From: Paracrocinitomix mangrovi
GTDB taxonomy: Bacteria; Bacteroidota; Bacteroidia; Flavobacteriales_D; Crocinitomicaceae
Length of the DNA stretch: 64,000 nt
Reading direction: 5' to 3'
Assembly (NCBI RefSeq): GCF_019740355.2
Contig: NZ_CP091819.1
Location: 4,030,001-4,094,000 of the forward strand
The notes beneath the pieces were generated by a model that was not told the DNA's origin, did no database searches, and was given only the letters and a program-made list of their open reading frames with translations. A program made the position numbers and the translations under genes. Positions 27,224 to 34,600 of the stretch are shown here, in pieces; positions within the stretch are counted from its first letter, which is position 1; every line of letters begins with the position of its first letter.

Positions 27224-29293
27224 TTGAAACTAATTTTTACATATCATCCGGCTTGGTTAATACTGGCAACAGTCATAGCATTTGGTTATGCATTTTTTCT
27301 TTATCGTAAAGATGAATTGCTGGCAGATGTGAAAAAAAACATTCGCTTAACAATGGCTTTTCTACGATTCGCTAGTGTTTGGTTGATATGTATGTTATTG
27401 ATTGGAATAATAGTAGAAAACTTTGTCGACAGAAAAGAAAAACCGCTTGTTTTCATTGCTCAGGACAATACAGAATCCATTTTATTGAACAATGATTCGG
27501 CCTATTATAAAGGAGAGTATCTTGACCAATTAAAGCAATTTTCAGCAGATTTAGGTGAAGAATTTGAGGTAGTTGAGTACAACTTTTCTGATGTGCTAAA
27601 TGAAGGTCTAAATGCCGATTACAGTGGAAAGTTAACCGATTTGTCACTTGTTTTTAATCAGATTTTTGATCAGTACACCAACAGAAACATTGGCGCTATT
27701 GTTTTGGCAAGTGATGGTATTTATAATTCAGGAGCTAATCCAATTTATGCAATAGCCCGCAAAAGTTTTATTCCTGTATTTACAGTTGGCTTAGGCGATA
27801 CAAATCAAGTCAAGGATCTTAAGATTGAATCTGTAAAGCACAATGATATTGCGTTTTTAGGAAATCAATTCCCGGTCCAGGTTAATATCGCTCATACTAA
27901 ATGTAAAGACGAAACAGTAAAAGTTGGTATTTACCAGTCTGATAAATTAATCAGTGAAAAAACAGTAAAACTTTCTAAAGATGAAGAGCAAATTTCATTG
28001 GACTATATCTTAAGTGCTGGTAAAATTGGATACCAGAAATACACTGTTAAAACAACTGTATTGGATCGTGAGTTTTCTGAACTTAATAACATATCTAATT
28101 TTTATGTGGAAGTAATTGATGGAAGACAACAATTGTTGGTTGCGCATAACGGCCCTCATCCGGACATTTCTGCATTGAGGTATGTAATAGAGAATAATAA
28201 AAATTATGAAGTAAATGTCTTGCCGATTGATGAAGTTAAAGAGACAAGCAAATATGATTTAATCATCTTACATAATTATCAACCTACCAACCAAAATATT
28301 AATGATGTTATCAACTCAGGAAGTGTTCCATGTTTGTTTATTGTAGGTAACAACTCAAATATTAGGGCACTTGAAACAGCTAAGATTGGATTTTCTGGTA
28401 ATAAAACAGACGTAGAAGAAGTTGGATTTACACTTAATTCCAATTTCAAAGACATATTACTAAGTCCTGAAACAGTTAGGATGTTAAACAGTGCACCGCC
28501 ATTGCAAGTGCCATTTGGTAATTTCAATTTTTCTGGAGGAAGCAACGTTTTGGCTTATCAAAAAATTGGAAACATTATTCTGGATAAGCCCTTGATTTAT
28601 TTTACTCAAAAAAACAATAGTAGAATAGGAGTTATAATGGGTGAAGGAATTTGGCGTTGGAGATTACACGATCAAAGTAGAAATGGTAGTACAACAAATT
28701 TCGAAGATTTCATAGGCAAGATTATAACATACCTGGCAGTAAAAGAGAACAAGGATCCTTTCAAGGTTCATCTTAAAAATGAATACTCAGAAAGTGAAAA
28801 TGTAGTTGTAAAAGCTGAATTATATAACAAGTCATTTGATCTGATAAATGAACCTGAAGTAAAATTTGAATACACTAATGAAGCAGGAAAGACTTTTGAG
28901 CCCTATTTTGTTAGAGTTGGGAAACATTACCAATTGGATTTAGGAAAACTTCCTCAAGGAATTTATGAGTGGAAGGCATCCACATCATTTCAAGGAGCTA
29001 ATTACGAGAAAAAAGGAACTTTCCTAGTGCGTGAAGTTAAAATTGAATCTTTAAACAATCAGGCTGATCATAGGCTATTAATGAATCTTGCTGAAAATTC
29101 AGGTGGCGCTTTTTATATTCCTTCTCAATTGGATGAATTATCATCAGATATTCAAAATAGAGATGAATTAGTTACGGTTGTTTATCAAGAAAGATCATTT
29201 GATGACCTGATTGACTATAAATGGCTGTTGTTATTAATAGTTGCTTTGCTTTCTGCAGAATGGTTCTTGCGTAAATATAACGGGGCTTATTAA
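27224..29293 (+). CDS. VWA-like membrane protein (BatA-like architecture), TTG start
   Basis: The 689-residue protein has two N-terminal membrane helices (about 8-28 and 43-66). A large soluble region follows with a von Willebrand A-like fold (DNTESILLNN near 84; AIVLASDGIYNSGANP near 160) and Ig-like segments. A final helix lies near 665-682. The arrangement recalls BatA/BatB-type and glutamine-amidotransferase-like membrane proteins of Bacteroidota. The MIDAS motif is imperfect (DNTES rather than DxSxS). The only start that keeps the first helix is TTG 27224; the nearby ATG 27188 runs into a stop after five codons. Its stop lies one base from that of the convergent DHCR24-like gene. Confidence 0.75.
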   Translation: MKLIFTYHPAWLILATVIAFGYAFFLYRKDELLADVKKNIRLTMAFLRFASVWLICMLLIGIIVENFVDRKEKPLVFIAQDNTESILLNNDSAYYKGEYLDQLKQFSADLGEEFEVVEYNFSDVLNEGLNADYSGKLTDLSLVFNQIFDQYTNRNIGAIVLASDGIYNSGANPIYAIARKSFIPVFTVGLGDTNQVKDLKIESVKHNDIAFLGNQFPVQVNIAHTKCKDETVKVGIYQSDKLISEKTVKLSKDEEQISLDYILSAGKIGYQKYTVKTTVLDREFSELNNISNFYVEVIDGRQQLLVAHNGPHPDISALRYVIENNKNYEVNVLPIDEVKETSKYDLIILHNYQPTNQNINDVINSGSVPCLFIVGNNSNIRALETAKIGFSGNKTDVEEVGFTLNSNFKDILLSPETVRMLNSAPPLQVPFGNFNFSGGSNVLAYQKIGNIILDKPLIYFTQKNNSRIGVIMGEGIWRWRLHDQSRNGSTTNFEDFIGKIITYLAVKENKDPFKVHLKNEYSESENVVVKAELYNKSFDLINEPEVKFEYTNEAGKTFEPYFVRVGKHYQLDLGKLPQGIYEWKASTSFQGANYEKKGTFLVREVKIESLNNQADHRLLMNLAENSGGAFYIPSQLDELSSDIQNRDELVTVVYQERSFDDLIDYKWLLLLIVALLSAEWFLRKYNGAY

Positions 29294-29294
29294 A

Positions 29295-30869
29295 TCACTT
29301 TTTCTTTAAACGTTTATACTCTAAAGGAGCAATTCTCTTGGCAAGTTTAGCGTGCACTTCAGGAAAAGCTTCTTTTACAAAAGGTATTTCTTCCCTCAAT
29401 TTATCGTAATAACTATGGTCAAACATGGTACGATATTGTTCCCGATCCATAAAAGATTTGGCATACATTGCTTGATAACCACCGTTTTCAATCACAAATT
29501 TTTCACAGTTTTTAAGGGCTTCATTTCCATCAAAATTTTCTACTGTACCTGTCCCATAAGTACCAATATCTACAAACATTTCATCTAAAGTGCCATCTTC
29601 TTTTTTATAAGGGTGAATGAATCCAATTTTGTTATCATGATCATATACGGCCATGGGACAAATCCATAAAGGATATAAATTGAAATTGTCATGAAAATGA
29701 TTCAATGATGCTTTAAGTTTGCTAATCGGAACCAGCATGTCCTGAGTTACTGAATGTTTTTCTCTTAAATCTCTGGTGGTTTCCGTTTCAAAGTACTTCA
29801 TCAAAGACATTTGAGGAGGCATGGCCCATCCAAATAAAAATCTGTGCCAGGCCTTGTTGCCAAAAGGAATAACCTGATCCATCATCCAAAATAAGGCACG
29901 TGTATGCCTGTGATAGTATTGCCTTAAAGGAATATACTCAACAACCTTTTTATTGTCTGAATGTATTTTTTGTACATGCGTGAAAAACCACGGTTTGTAC
30001 CATCTGCCAATGGCATTTTTCTTTCCGTCATTACCAACTTTATCGGCTAAATTACCCAACATCATCACTCCCTTGTCCTTAGCATACACAAGCGTTTCTA
30101 TAAACTGAATCTCATCCGGTTTTCTTGTGGAGGCTTCAAATTCATCAATTATTTGGTCTTGTGAATTTTGAGGATAATATTCTAATCTCACATATTTCTT
30201 AGAAGGGATAATCTTTAATTCTACGGCTACTAAAAATCCGAGGGTACCATATGACCAGGGAATAGTTGCGTAAATATCTGCTCTCTCCGTTTTGCTGCAT
30301 TTTATCAATTCTCCATCTGGAGTTATTAGTTCAAATGATTCACAGATATACTGAAACAATCCGTATTTATGACTTGATGATTCAATCCCAAAACCACTCA
30401 CCAAACCACCAACTGTAAGTACATCCAATTCAGGTAGTACAGCTAAAGTCCAGCCTCTTTTATTCAAGTATTTTGAAATTTGGCCCATATCCACCTGAGG
30501 TTCCACTCTAACAGTTTGTTTTTCTTCATTGATTTCAAGTATATCTCTCATGTTGAGATAAATCTTTCTGTTCGTTTTTTTATACCCCGGAACCAACTCG
30601 CTCATGGTGAACCAACCAGATCTTCCTGTTGTTAATTGCTCTTTACTACCGCTTTCTCTCCAGGCTTTTAACTGATCCTGAACATTTTTCACTCTTTTAT
30701 CATGCAATTTTGGAGCACTGCTGAGCATTAATGTAATCTTGCTCTTGCTTTTCAAATAGAGGTTATACCAAAATGACATAGGTAGTAACACAAGCGTTGC
30801 AAAGGTTCCTCTGTATTTGGTAAGAATTATCTCAGTTAGTCCTCTTTTTTTCTTAGGTGTAGCAGTCAT
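29295..30869 (-). CDS. FAD-dependent oxidoreductase, DHCR24 (delta-24 sterol reductase) homologue
   Basis: The 524-residue protein matches remembered human DHCR24/seladin-1 (516 residues) from end to end. The FAD-binding PCMH domain includes VGGLVSGFGIESSSHKYGLF (153-172) and PWSYGTLGFLVA (204-215). The C-terminal half shares YKPWFF, EYIPLRQYYHRHTRALFW, IPFGN, QDMLVP and MFDHSYYDKLREE-type blocks. A hydrophobic N-terminal segment (about 22-38) could anchor it to the membrane, as in the eukaryotic enzyme. DHCR24 reduces the side-chain delta-24 double bond of sterols using FAD and NADPH. No other sterol or hopanoid gene is visible here, so the bacterial substrate is unknown. It is the only gene on its strand here, end to end with the VWA-like gene. 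Confidence 0.88.
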   Translation of the reverse strand: MTATPKKKRGLTEIILTKYRGTFATLVLLPMSFWYNLYLKSKSKITLMLSSAPKLHDKRVKNVQDQLKAWRESGSKEQLTTGRSGWFTMSELVPGYKKTNRKIYLNMRDILEINEEKQTVRVEPQVDMGQISKYLNKRGWTLAVLPELDVLTVGGLVSGFGIESSSHKYGLFQYICESFELITPDGELIKCSKTERADIYATIPWSYGTLGFLVAVELKIIPSKKYVRLEYYPQNSQDQIIDEFEASTRKPDEIQFIETLVYAKDKGVMMLGNLADKVGNDGKKNAIGRWYKPWFFTHVQKIHSDNKKVVEYIPLRQYYHRHTRALFWMMDQVIPFGNKAWHRFLFGWAMPPQMSLMKYFETETTRDLREKHSVTQDMLVPISKLKASLNHFHDNFNLYPLWICPMAVYDHDNKIGFIHPYKKEDGTLDEMFVDIGTYGTGTVENFDGNEALKNCEKFVIENGGYQAMYAKSFMDREQYRTMFDHSYYDKLREEIPFVKEAFPEVHAKLAKRIAPLEYKRLKKK

Positions 30870-31075: not shown

Positions 31076-34000
31076 ATGACTCTGAAAAAATCTATTTCGG
31101 TAATCTTAATCCTTTTAGGTGGATTAAATTATTTGAAAGCTCAAAGTACATATCCGTACCAACAAGACTTTCAATCTGCATATAACAATAATCAATTACT
31201 ACCTCAAGGTATTTTAGAGGCAGTTGCTTTTGTGCAAACAAGAATAGTTCATCTTGATGGACATGAAGAACCTAGTTGTACAGGAATTCCTAAGACTTAT
31301 GGAGTAATGGGATTAGTAGCTGACGGACAAGGTTATTTTAATAATACACTAACTGAGGTATCTTCTTTGTCCGGTTATAGTAGTCAGCAAATCATCAATA
31401 ACCCTGCTGATAATATTGGAGCTTATGCAAAAGCTTTAAACCAAACTTTATTAAATAATGGAGCAGTTGTAAATGATTATAGTGCAATTGCAATTGCTTT
31501 AGGTCAATTGTCAGAAATTCCATTTGACTCAAATGCGGTTAACGATTATGCAAGAAGTGCTTTTGTGTATCAAGTATTGGATTTTATGAGAGATGAGGAG
31601 AATCAAGCAAAGTTTGGATTTACAGCTCCGGTAATAGATTTGGAAGCAATTTTTGGTAAAGAGAACCTAAAAATCTTATCGAGTAAAAAAGTACTTATTT
31701 CATCAACAGAAGTAAAAGACGCTAAAGGAAATCATTATCAATCATCAGGTCAAACCAAATCACAAGATTATGCACCTGCACTTTGGGTAGCAACACCTAC
31801 TTGTAATTATTCTTCAAGAAATGGTACCGCTATTTCAGCTGTAACAATTCATACAATTCAAGGAACTTATGCCGGAGCAATTAGTTGGGCTCAAAACTGT
31901 AATGCCAATGTATCATATCACTATGTGGTGAGATCATCTGATGGGCAAATTACTCAGATGGTTTACGAAACAGATAAAGGATGGCATGTTGGATCAGAAA
32001 ATCCATACACAATTGGTATTGAGCATGAAGGTTATGTAGATAATCCAGCCTGGTATACACCTTCATTGTATAACGCTTCAGCAAATTTGGTAAAAGACAT
32101 TACACAATCAGGATACGGAATTAACCCTTTGCGCACTTTTCAAGGTCCTGCAACTGTTGGGTTAAACACTTTAGGAGGATGTACAAAGATTAAAGGGCAC
32201 CAGCATTATCCAAATCAATCACACACTGATCCGGGAATCAATTGGGATTGGGAGCACTTCTATCAATTAATTAATGATAATCCACCTGTTACTACTTTGA
32301 ATACTACTTCAGGAGTTTTTTATGATTCAGGAGGATCAACAGGGAATTATTCTGATGATGAAAGAGAGTTGTATTTGATACAACCCGGAAATGTATTGAG
32401 TGTTACCATCAATTTTGTTCAATTCAGTTTAGAAAATAACTGGGACTATATGTATGTATATGATGGAACTTCTTTATCAGATCCGCTTTTGGGAGTATAT
32501 ACCGGGACGGCCGTTCCTTCTTCACTAACATCTTCAGGTGATGCTATATTAATTGAATTTAGGTCAGATTGTGCAACACAAGATGCAGGATGGGAAATTT
32601 CATGGACATCAGTTCCAGGACCAACTCCGGGAGATGTTGTCGCGCCAACTACTTCTATTAGCACGGTAGGAAACTGGAAAACTACTGATTTTACTGCAAC
32701 TTTTAGTGATGCTGATAATGTTGGTGGAAGTGGTGTTCATCAAAGATTTTATCAGGTAATTGATTTTGATGGTACTGAATGGAGAGCTAACGCTAATAAT
32801 GGTTTCTTCTCAGATAATTTTGATGCAACTATTCATGCTGATTGGACTCAACAAGTTGGTACTTGGGGTATCAATTCAATGAAATTACGTCAGTCTGACG
32901 AAGCCAATACAAACACAAATATTTGGGCAGGATGTAATCAGGATAATGATGACCAATGGCTTTATCACTTTGGATTAAATATTTCAGGTGCTGGAGGTAA
33001 TAGAAGGGGAGGATTTCACTTTATGTGTGATGATGCTACTTTAACCAATAGGGGGAATTCTTATTTTATTTGGTTAAGAGTAGATGACGATAAAATTCAG
33101 ATTTATAAAACAATAAATGATACTTTTTATCTACAAGAAGATATCACTTATACCGTGAATGAAAATCAATGGTATGATATAAAAACGGTATTTGATAAAG
33201 CAACAGGTTTGATTAGTCTTTACATAGATGATGCGTTAGAAGCTTCTTGGGTGGATGTAGCGCCTTATACAACTGGTAATAGTGTTTCTTTTAGATCAGG
33301 TGATGCAATTATGGATATAGAAAACTTCAAGGTGTATCATAATAGAGGTGTATCTGAAATGGTGACCATTAATACCGGAAATGATATTCAGTACGAAAAT
33401 CTTGATCCTTTAACCCATGCGGCTAAAGTAAAATCAATCGTGATTGACAGTGCTGCTAACATTTCCGGAATTGCCCAAACATTAGTTAATGTTGATTGGA
33501 CACCTCCAACTACAATTGCAACAATTAATGATGGTACAGCTGCTGATATCAATACTTTTACTGATAATTCTCAAATATCTGCCAATTGGACTCCTTCAGT
33601 GGATCCTAACTCGGATTTAGCAGAGTATTTCTACAGTATTGGAACAAGCCCTTTAGCAGCAGATATTGTCCCATGGACAGGAAACTGGTTTGCAGATACC
33701 CTTACCAAAACGGGATTAAGTTTAGTGGAAGGAGATACTTACTATGTATGTGTGTATGCTAAAAATGGGGCTGATTTGTTTTCAGATACTACTTGTTCAG
33801 ATGGACAAACACTGCAAGCACCTACAAGTGGTCCAACGGCAGGTTTTGTTGTGCCTAACGCATATATATGCTCGTATGAAGCAGTTCAAGTATTTAATTC
33901 AAGTACAAATGCACAAACTTACAGCTGGAGTGCTCCTGGTGCAACACCATCTACTTCAACTGATGCTAATCCGGTATTTACATATTCAGCAACCGGTTAT

Positions 34001-34600
34001 TATGACATTACGCTTACTGCAACTAGTACAGGAGGGACAGATACTGATATTCAAACAATCTTTGTAAATATTGATACCGTTCCAGAAGCGGCTTATGCAG
34101 CATCAGAGTATATTGTTGATATCAGTAATCCTTTTGTTTCATTTACTAATCAGTCGCTTCATGCAAATGGATATACTTGGAATTTTGGTGATGGTAATTT
34201 CTCAAATGATGTTAATCCTTGGCATGAATATGCAGCCATAGGTGATTACTATGTTGAGTTAATTGCAGTAAACGGACTTTGTCCAAACGATACAACTGTG
34301 GCACTTGTTCAGGTAGTGGATAATCTATCAGTAGGGGAAGATATGATAGGTGGATTTGCAATTTATCCTAACCCTGTTGCAGAAGAACTGAATATTCAAT
34401 TAAACAATAGTTGGGAAGATGTAGTAAAAGTTGAATTGATTGATCCTAATGGTAAAATAGTGTTGATACAGACCTATAAAAAGGGAAGTAATGAACCCAT
34501 TTTGATTGATCAAAAACGAGTTTCGAGCGGAGCTTATTTTATTCGAATTTCAGATAGTGAAAAAGTTGTTTCGCAGAAAATACTCGTCAAAACACACTAG
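31076..34600 (+). CDS. Secreted N-acetylmuramoyl-L-alanine amidase with CUB, PKD and T9SS type A domains
   Basis: The 1174-residue protein has a signal peptide (about 1-22). A conserved N-terminal region (about 23-200) is followed by an amidase_2 (AmpD-like) domain at about 250-395. Candidate zinc ligands include H259 (VTIHTIQG), H375/H377 (GHQHYPNQSHTDPG) and the nearby His-x-Asp-Pro. A CUB-like domain (about 400-510: YMYVYDG, IEFRSD), a LamG/concanavalin-like domain (about 565-765), an FN3-like part and two PKD domains (about 915-1080) follow. The end (GGFAIYPNPVAEELNIQL onward) is the T9SS type A sorting domain. It should cleave the MurNAc-L-Ala bond, and being exported by T9SS it probably acts on foreign or shed cell wall (inference). 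Confidence 0.9.
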   Translation: MTLKKSISVILILLGGLNYLKAQSTYPYQQDFQSAYNNNQLLPQGILEAVAFVQTRIVHLDGHEEPSCTGIPKTYGVMGLVADGQGYFNNTLTEVSSLSGYSSQQIINNPADNIGAYAKALNQTLLNNGAVVNDYSAIAIALGQLSEIPFDSNAVNDYARSAFVYQVLDFMRDEENQAKFGFTAPVIDLEAIFGKENLKILSSKKVLISSTEVKDAKGNHYQSSGQTKSQDYAPALWVATPTCNYSSRNGTAISAVTIHTIQGTYAGAISWAQNCNANVSYHYVVRSSDGQITQMVYETDKGWHVGSENPYTIGIEHEGYVDNPAWYTPSLYNASANLVKDITQSGYGINPLRTFQGPATVGLNTLGGCTKIKGHQHYPNQSHTDPGINWDWEHFYQLINDNPPVTTLNTTSGVFYDSGGSTGNYSDDERELYLIQPGNVLSVTINFVQFSLENNWDYMYVYDGTSLSDPLLGVYTGTAVPSSLTSSGDAILIEFRSDCATQDAGWEISWTSVPGPTPGDVVAPTTSISTVGNWKTTDFTATFSDADNVGGSGVHQRFYQVIDFDGTEWRANANNGFFSDNFDATIHADWTQQVGTWGINSMKLRQSDEANTNTNIWAGCNQDNDDQWLYHFGLNISGAGGNRRGGFHFMCDDATLTNRGNSYFIWLRVDDDKIQIYKTINDTFYLQEDITYTVNENQWYDIKTVFDKATGLISLYIDDALEASWVDVAPYTTGNSVSFRSGDAIMDIENFKVYHNRGVSEMVTINTGNDIQYENLDPLTHAAKVKSIVIDSAANISGIAQTLVNVDWTPPTTIATINDGTAADINTFTDNSQISANWTPSVDPNSDLAEYFYSIGTSPLAADIVPWTGNWFADTLTKTGLSLVEGDTYYVCVYAKNGADLFSDTTCSDGQTLQAPTSGPTAGFVVPNAYICSYEAVQVFNSSTNAQTYSWSAPGATPSTSTDANPVFTYSATGYYDITLTATSTGGTDTDIQTIFVNIDTVPEAAYAASEYIVDISNPFVSFTNQSLHANGYTWNFGDGNFSNDVNPWHEYAAIGDYYVELIAVNGLCPNDTTVALVQVVDNLSVGEDMIGGFAIYPNPVAEELNIQLNNSWEDVVKVELIDPNGKIVLIQTYKKGSNEPILIDQKRVSSGAYFIRISDSEKVVSQKILVKTH

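Follow-up and report, generated by a model that had tools for sequence, protein, structure and literature searches.

Sterols are usually read as a mark of eukaryotes, both in living cells and in rocks. The DHCR24 family of C-24 reductases, for which NADPH is the electron donor, is nevertheless already known in bacteria, and a plant enzyme, SSR2, presumably belongs to the same family (DWF1/DHCR24). In the parts of the literature available to us, DHCR24-type or canonical C-24 reductases are described from methanotrophs and Nannocystaceae (PMC4919349, PMC10202945, PMC12004948), the canonical enzyme of plants acts as a delta-24(28) reductase, and SSR2 reduces cycloartenol with its 4,4,14-methyls still present (PMC8172173). 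Bsr of Myxococcota also performs C-24 reduction by way of a flavoenzyme family, but that family is GGR and not DHCR24 (PMC12004948, as far as its accessible text goes).

Among the closest described systems are those of methanotrophs. According to the available portion of PMC4919349, Methylobacter luteus made only C-24-saturated sterols, and Methylosarcina lacus, reported there to be without a homologue, showed no C-24 saturation. This pair offers the best functional evidence, correlative in kind, for the enzyme considered here. The same portion lists Cystobacter fuscus with a homologue for the ERG4/DHCR24 step, yet records no C-24-saturated sterol, so the listing of a C-24-reductase homologue is no guarantee that sterols are saturated. 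In M. luteus, we found a single stretch encoding a P450-ferredoxin protein (CYP51 is its best PDB match), a small protein, the cyclase, the epoxidase, an NAD-dependent epimerase/3-beta-HSD-type protein, a Rieske oxygenase, an MMPL-family transporter and DHCR24. Judged by their place, the epimerase/3-beta-HSD-type protein would be SdmB and the Rieske oxygenase SdmA; judged by gene order, the DHCR24 would be MetluDRAFT_1263, the C-24 reduction entry in Table 4 of PMC4919349. A search of titles and abstract beginnings in the open-licence literature returned no report of DHCR24 in Bacteroidota. Another described sterol producer is Fluviicola taffensis, a member of the Crocinitomicaceae like a congener of Paracrocinitomix mangrovi; it is described as making only cycloartenol, the unmodified product of cyclization, and the accessible text reports no homologue of genes downstream of its cyclase (PMC4919349).

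The window analyzed here is a 64,000-nucleotide stretch of the P. mangrovi genome (C1:4030001-4094000), which is assembled as one contig of 4,365,762 bases, is 99.97% complete and holds a single DHCR24 gene. This predicted delta-24 sterol reductase gene, assigned from its ORF, its match to the human and plant enzymes and its place in a tree, is intact: it occupies 29295-30869 on the minus strand, starts with ATG and encodes 524 residues with no internal stop. A convergent gene at 27224-29293 (+) ends 1 base away from it, and on its other side, after 206 bases, a divergent amidase gene begins at 31076-34600 (+). The reductase gene is apparently monocistronic because both neighbors are on the opposite strand. 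Promoter and terminator scans yielded signals no richer than those in shuffled sequence. The product of the convergent neighbor has 689 residues and matched nothing in Pfam or NCBIfam at the thresholds applied; the divergent gene encodes an N-acetylmuramoyl-L-alanine amidase that carries CUB and PKD domains as well as a Por secretion tail.

An earlier note made from the letters of this DNA had called the product a near full-length homologue of eukaryotic DHCR24, a claim that blastp bore out. The protein is 46% identical to human DHCR24 over 505 residues (E 4e-176, 496 bits) and 39% identical to Arabidopsis DWF1 over 518 residues, and the two references are 40% identical to each other; both references are sequences that we take to be those of the two enzymes. 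The three blocks quoted earlier are all present and match the human reference sequence in our alignments: VGGLVSGFGIESSSHKYGLF (residues 153-172; 30354-30413, minus strand), which is partly invariant in the DHCR24 family, PWSYGTLGFLVA (residues 204-215; 30225-30260, minus strand) and EYIPLRQYYHRHTRALFW (residues 311-328; 29886-29939, minus strand). The sole domain seen with Pfam was FAD_binding_4 (PF01565, E 1.2e-16), at residues 60-192 (30294-30692, minus strand), and the best NCBIfam match reached 51 bits against a cut-off of 397. Since other FAD-oxidase families align with the protein mainly in the FAD domain, its match to DHCR24 is far above chance; on full-length homology extending beyond the FAD domain, it is a member of the DHCR24 family.

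In a 70-row alignment of the family, 61 columns are at least 97% conserved. At columns conserved in at least 90% of rows, the window protein deviates at 6 positions, as does that of its congener, compared to a median of 2 per row, indicating slightly more drift than usual. We take residues R94, R103, E191, N294, K306, Y471 and E480 of human DHCR24 to be sites altered in desmosterolosis. R94, N294 and Y471 (human numbering) are kept in the window protein and in almost all homologues, and position 191 is E in the window protein and E or D in 69 of the 70 rows; the window protein does not keep R103, K306 or E480.

Searching the PDB with the protein sequence retrieved no solved DHCR24 structure, and the best chain scored 27 bits. 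Structure modeling, for which 33 window and locus proteins served as input, gave the protein a pLDDT of 86.2 and a pTM of 0.86. The model's best fold matches were DprE1, cytokinin dehydrogenase and galactonolactone dehydrogenase (best E 4.9e-19), whose fold is presumably that of the VAO/PCMH family, and a VAO/PCMH flavoenzyme fold is predicted for the window protein. The possible N-terminal anchor proposed in the earlier note stood in part. The model has a long helix at residues 20-50, and model and hydropathy together mark a weakly hydrophobic helical segment at residues 11-50 (30720-30839, minus strand) that may serve as a membrane foot. The strong hydrophobic stretch is lacking: the window protein has nothing equivalent to the first 22 residues of human DHCR24, and its best 19-residue mean hydropathy is 1.07 (sampled windows, residues 11-56) versus 1.98 in the human N-terminus. 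Human DHCR24 binds membrane without its N-terminal hydrophobic anchor, according to the part of PMC3958128 available, and we therefore did not count a strong anchor as family-defining.

The suggestion that this organism makes or modifies sterols called for squalene epoxidase and oxidosqualene cyclase genes elsewhere in the genome. Both were found, giving the suggestion genomic support and placing P. mangrovi among bacteria with the two genes expected of a sterol producer. They belong to a run of nine plus-strand genes at C1 679,353-690,339, which encode squalene synthase, squalene epoxidase, type 2 IPP isomerase, HMG-CoA reductase, a GYDIA-type GHMP kinase, mevalonate diphosphate decarboxylase, mevalonate kinase, a polyprenyl synthase and oxidosqualene cyclase. 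Squalene synthase, HMG-CoA reductase and the GYDIA kinase score above NCBIfam cut-offs and the SE-family epoxidase above its Pfam cut-off; the matches behind the names IPP isomerase, mevalonate decarboxylase and mevalonate kinase fall below NCBIfam cut-offs. The run lies about 1 Mb from the DHCR24 gene if the contig is circular. Similar arrangements occur within the family: the spacing of the F. taffensis cyclase Fluta_3214 and epoxidase Fluta_3221, as given in the accessible text of PMC4919349, fits the P. mangrovi run, and in one other genus (g10), with cyclases 71-79% identical to that of P. mangrovi, one member (L150) has the same nine-gene order.

The cyclase of the run resembles human lanosterol synthase (688 bits) much more than squalene-hopene cyclase (128 bits). 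Its residues at human positions 381, 449 and 453 are Y, H and V: V453 is of the lanosterol type, and in place of the T381 and C/Q449 of lanosterol synthases it has the cycloartenol-type Y381 and H449, a mixture from which the product could be lanosterol, cycloartenol or both. Wei et al. report that, in the bacteria they tested, V453 accompanies lanosterol and I453 cycloartenol, and that, among these three positions, only 453 follows the product in bacteria (PMC4919349, available part). Because the residue at position 453 is V, the product is most likely lanosterol. It is unlikely that the C-24 reductase acts mainly on cycloartenol, yielding cycloartanol instead of dihydrolanosterol, which would in any case be a variant of reduction of the cell's own sterol. 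The retention of the Y381 and H449 of cycloartenol synthases, the production of cycloartenol by F. taffensis in the Crocinitomicaceae (PMC4919349, in the text available) and the I453 of most DHCR24-bearing Bacteroidota outside the genus all speak for cycloartenol, but both P. mangrovi and its DHCR24-bearing congener have V453, the residue that the same source associates with lanosterol.

The reading we favor, to which we assign a probability of about 0.78, is that the window enzyme reduces C-24 of the cell's own sterol. The distant gene run would make isoprenoid precursors, squalene, 2,3-oxidosqualene and then a tetracyclic sterol, most likely lanosterol; the FAD-dependent window enzyme would then reduce the side-chain double bond at C-24, with 24,25-dihydrolanosterol as the most likely product. 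P. mangrovi is thus predicted to make, and probably does make, a side-chain-saturated sterol of its own. For the enzyme itself, it is catalytic activity, substrate, product, use of NADPH and membrane role that we infer.

To follow the pathway beyond cyclization, we searched for CYP51, SdmA and ERG4/ERG24. The ERG4/ERG24 family had no match at 0.01 in the P. mangrovi genome. With M. luteus CYP51 as the query, close matches (46-100% identity) occurred in 5 of 18 genomes, its own included, all of them methanotroph or Enhygromyxa; among 13 Bacteroidota, eight had only P450 matches at 22-29% and five had none. M. luteus SdmA likewise gave strong matches (43-100%) only in these same five genomes, no match at 1e-10 in P. 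mangrovi or its DHCR24-bearing congener (G026), and matches at 23-28% in 6 of 11 other Bacteroidota. Thus, M. luteus has DHCR24 together with CYP51 and Rieske/SDR genes, whereas in P. mangrovi neither CYP51 nor SdmA was found; the CYP51, ERG24 and SdmA genes of a cholesterol-type pathway had no counterpart in our searches of its genome.

Two P. mangrovi cytochrome P450 genes (C1:2410006-2411286 and C1:2104644-2105978) were considered as CYP51 candidates and rejected as not CYP51-like, being 23% and 27% identical to M. luteus CYP51 versus 46-100% for the close matches. No CYP51 appeared among the best 60 of 141 and best 60 of 147 PDB chains matching the two proteins; in a control, M. luteus CYP51 had Cytochrome P450 51 as its first PDB match. 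A plant lutein-pathway P450 and BM3-type P450s stood high among the PDB matches of both.

Because CYP51, ERG24 and SdmA were not found, C-24 saturation may be the only, or nearly the only, change that follows cyclization. A wider proposal, which we consider evenly poised, is that some Bacteroidota have a minimal pathway leading from cyclization to side-chain reduction with no demethylation, giving saturated C30 sterols, and that the reductase has spread among bacteria as a module that methanotrophs share. The end products predicted from sequence would be 24,25-dihydrolanosterol in P. mangrovi and cycloartanol in other Bacteroidota. Outside the genus there are 11 DHCR24-bearing Bacteroidota, and the cyclases of nine have I453, which points to cycloartanol there; in the other two, G204 and G209, the residue was not read by the pattern. 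Cyclization followed by direct side-chain reduction without demethylation is, as far as we have seen, undescribed for any bacterium.

We next compared the distribution of DHCR24 with that of the cyclase, taking the paired searches to cover the same 200 genomes of the family and the same 395 of the phylum sample. Three of the 200 family genomes matched the window protein at 1e-10: P. mangrovi, the congener G026 (67% identity) and G069, whose 26% partial match was left out of the DHCR24 count. A cyclase was present in 16 of the 200, both DHCR24 carriers included (Fisher p 0.006, uncorrected for kinship). Fourteen of these 16, two of them congeners, were without DHCR24, and the 184 family genomes with no cyclase match, G069 among them, contained no full-length DHCR24. 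In the phylum sample, DHCR24 was detected at 1e-30 only in P. mangrovi (1/395, with at most three candidates scored per genome), and a cyclase at 1e-50 in five genomes, P. mangrovi included; no DHCR24 was found in the 390 cyclase-less genomes.

Scanning genome contigs with the single protein gave no relative among 62 candidate stretches, and scanning with an alignment query gave 68 among 162 candidates, 12 of which were labeled Bacteroidota; one of these loci, L034 (G200), comes from the same genome as G026 and was counted once. All 13 DHCR24-bearing Bacteroidota genomes (the 12 from the scan plus P. mangrovi) had a cyclase, versus 4 of the 394 others in the phylum sample; p-values here are only indicative because the two genome sets were drawn from separate collections and contain relatives. 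The cyclase search took in 35 of the 68 DHCR24 loci, and their genomes contained a cyclase match in 29 cases at 1e-10 and 28 at 1e-50. The six with no cyclase match (G222, G224, G225, G226, G227 and G229) include none labeled Bacteroidota, and the methanotroph MAG G215 had only a weak match at the level of a squalene-hopene cyclase. A cyclase or epoxidase lay near DHCR24 in 11 of the 68 loci (within flanks of 10 kb or less, since many of the contigs end sooner); in Xanthovirga aplysinae, also of the Bacteroidota, DHCR24 adjoins an SE-family squalene epoxidase.

Two aspects of these data count against reduction of the cell's own sterol: the DHCR24 gene lies outside the sterol run, and 14 of the 16 cyclase-bearing family genomes have no DHCR24. 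Both would suit an enzyme acting on sterols that the cell imports from algae or other eukaryotes. We regard such scavenging as improbable, given that no full-length DHCR24 turned up in the 184 family and 390 phylum-sample genomes that have no cyclase. Carotenoids and menaquinone are widespread in Bacteroidota, and the earlier note had offered a carotenoid or a menaquinone side chain as an alternative substrate. The fold is common to enzymes with quite different substrates, which would allow for reduction of another isoprenoid or of some other alkene; however, the sequence is that of DHCR24 over its whole length and not merely in fold, and the gene occurs in few genomes and follows the sterol cyclase in its distribution, which weakens this proposal and makes it, in our view, very improbable.

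Phylogenetic analysis placed the window protein among DHCR24 rows with a sterol context. The tree comprised 70 rows and was midpoint-rooted, with two eukaryotes (the human and plant reference sequences) and no outgroup of other oxidoreductases; it omitted the 153-residue fragment L101 and used the longer of the two ORFs of L049. The window protein paired with its congener (L034; support 100/98), then joined two Flavobacteriales MAGs (100/100), and lay with 10 Bacteroidota rows (86/82); the position of an eleventh, Xanthovirga, was not resolved, and a constraint holding the 12 Bacteroidota rows together, window included, was not rejected (p 0.375). The Bacteroidota formed one set with 36 Pseudomonadota rows, nearly all methanotrophs (100/100). 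Identity to the window protein over the full length is 50-58% for the DHCR24-type reductases of Methylococcales, including 54% for the M. luteus orthologue. Human DHCR24 falls outside this set and plant DWF1 is distant from the window protein. DWF1 grouped, apart from human, with a Polyangiaceae MAG, a Latescibacterota MAG and two gammaproteobacterial MAGs (100/99), a grouping that may be false owing to long branches.

Recent acquisition from a eukaryote, another possibility raised in the earlier note and one that concerns origin only, is very unlikely. The 46% identity to human DHCR24 does exceed the 40% between human and plant, and the gene's third-position GC of 0.326, second highest of 11 genes (others 0.209-0.330), hints weakly at a foreign origin, whatever the source. 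Its overall GC is, however, 0.362 versus 0.346 for the window, its nearest rows are bacterial, and a tree constrained to unite the window protein, its nearest relative L034 and human was rejected (AU p = 0.0004), and a recent animal origin with it. An older exchange between domains may have occurred, and the direction of any ancient transfer is not firm, given the midpoint root, the long branches and a eukaryotic sample of two sequences. Two scans of viral contigs detected no DHCR24 relative (0/368 and 0/3 candidates), so neither a giant-virus nor a phage source is indicated.

A quick cyclase tree, from which G206, G132, G215 and G231 were omitted as fragments or weak matches, contained a supported set of 30: the window's family, the DHCR24-bearing Bacteroidota included in the tree and five Methylobacter-type methanotrophs. 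The cyclases of P. mangrovi and M. luteus both belong to it; those of Methylococcus and Nannocystaceae and four others from the phylum sample fall outside. DHCR24 and the cyclase type thus seem to share part of their history. They have not always been passed on together, since the window and L035 are 66% identical in DHCR24 and 51% in their cyclases. No synteny with the congener was found over 40 of the 42.4 kb of its contig; besides DHCR24, two window ORFs match two ORFs of that contig at 35-36%.

As far as our literature searches reach, the occurrence of DHCR24 in Bacteroidota alongside a cyclase and without the CYP51 and SdmA demethylases is new, and it is this place of occurrence, together with the short pathway it implies, that is of interest. 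A near-complete genome with a cyclase and DHCR24 and no CYP51 or SdmA match provides a testable case of modified sterols in Bacteroidota, and an uncomplicated bacterial setting in which to study how C-24 saturation by itself affects a membrane. If the proposed pathway operates, such Bacteroidota would be a non-eukaryotic source of lanostane- or cycloartane-type molecular fossils.

Two observations concern the cyclases of relatives. Four phylum-sample genomes without DHCR24 (G503, G625, G534 and G479; L199-L202) encode a second oxidosqualene cyclase-like type, 32-33% identical, whose product is perhaps an arborane; one bacterial cyclase of the oxidosqualene cyclase superfamily, presumably from a member of the Bacteroidota, reportedly makes arborane triterpenols and not sterols, a point that also counts against the reading favored for P. 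mangrovi. Lastly, the species of genus g10 differ at position 453 of the cyclase, some having V and others I; loci L021, L022 and L029 differ in this respect from L023-L027, which makes these species a natural pair for the lanosterol/cycloartenol rule.
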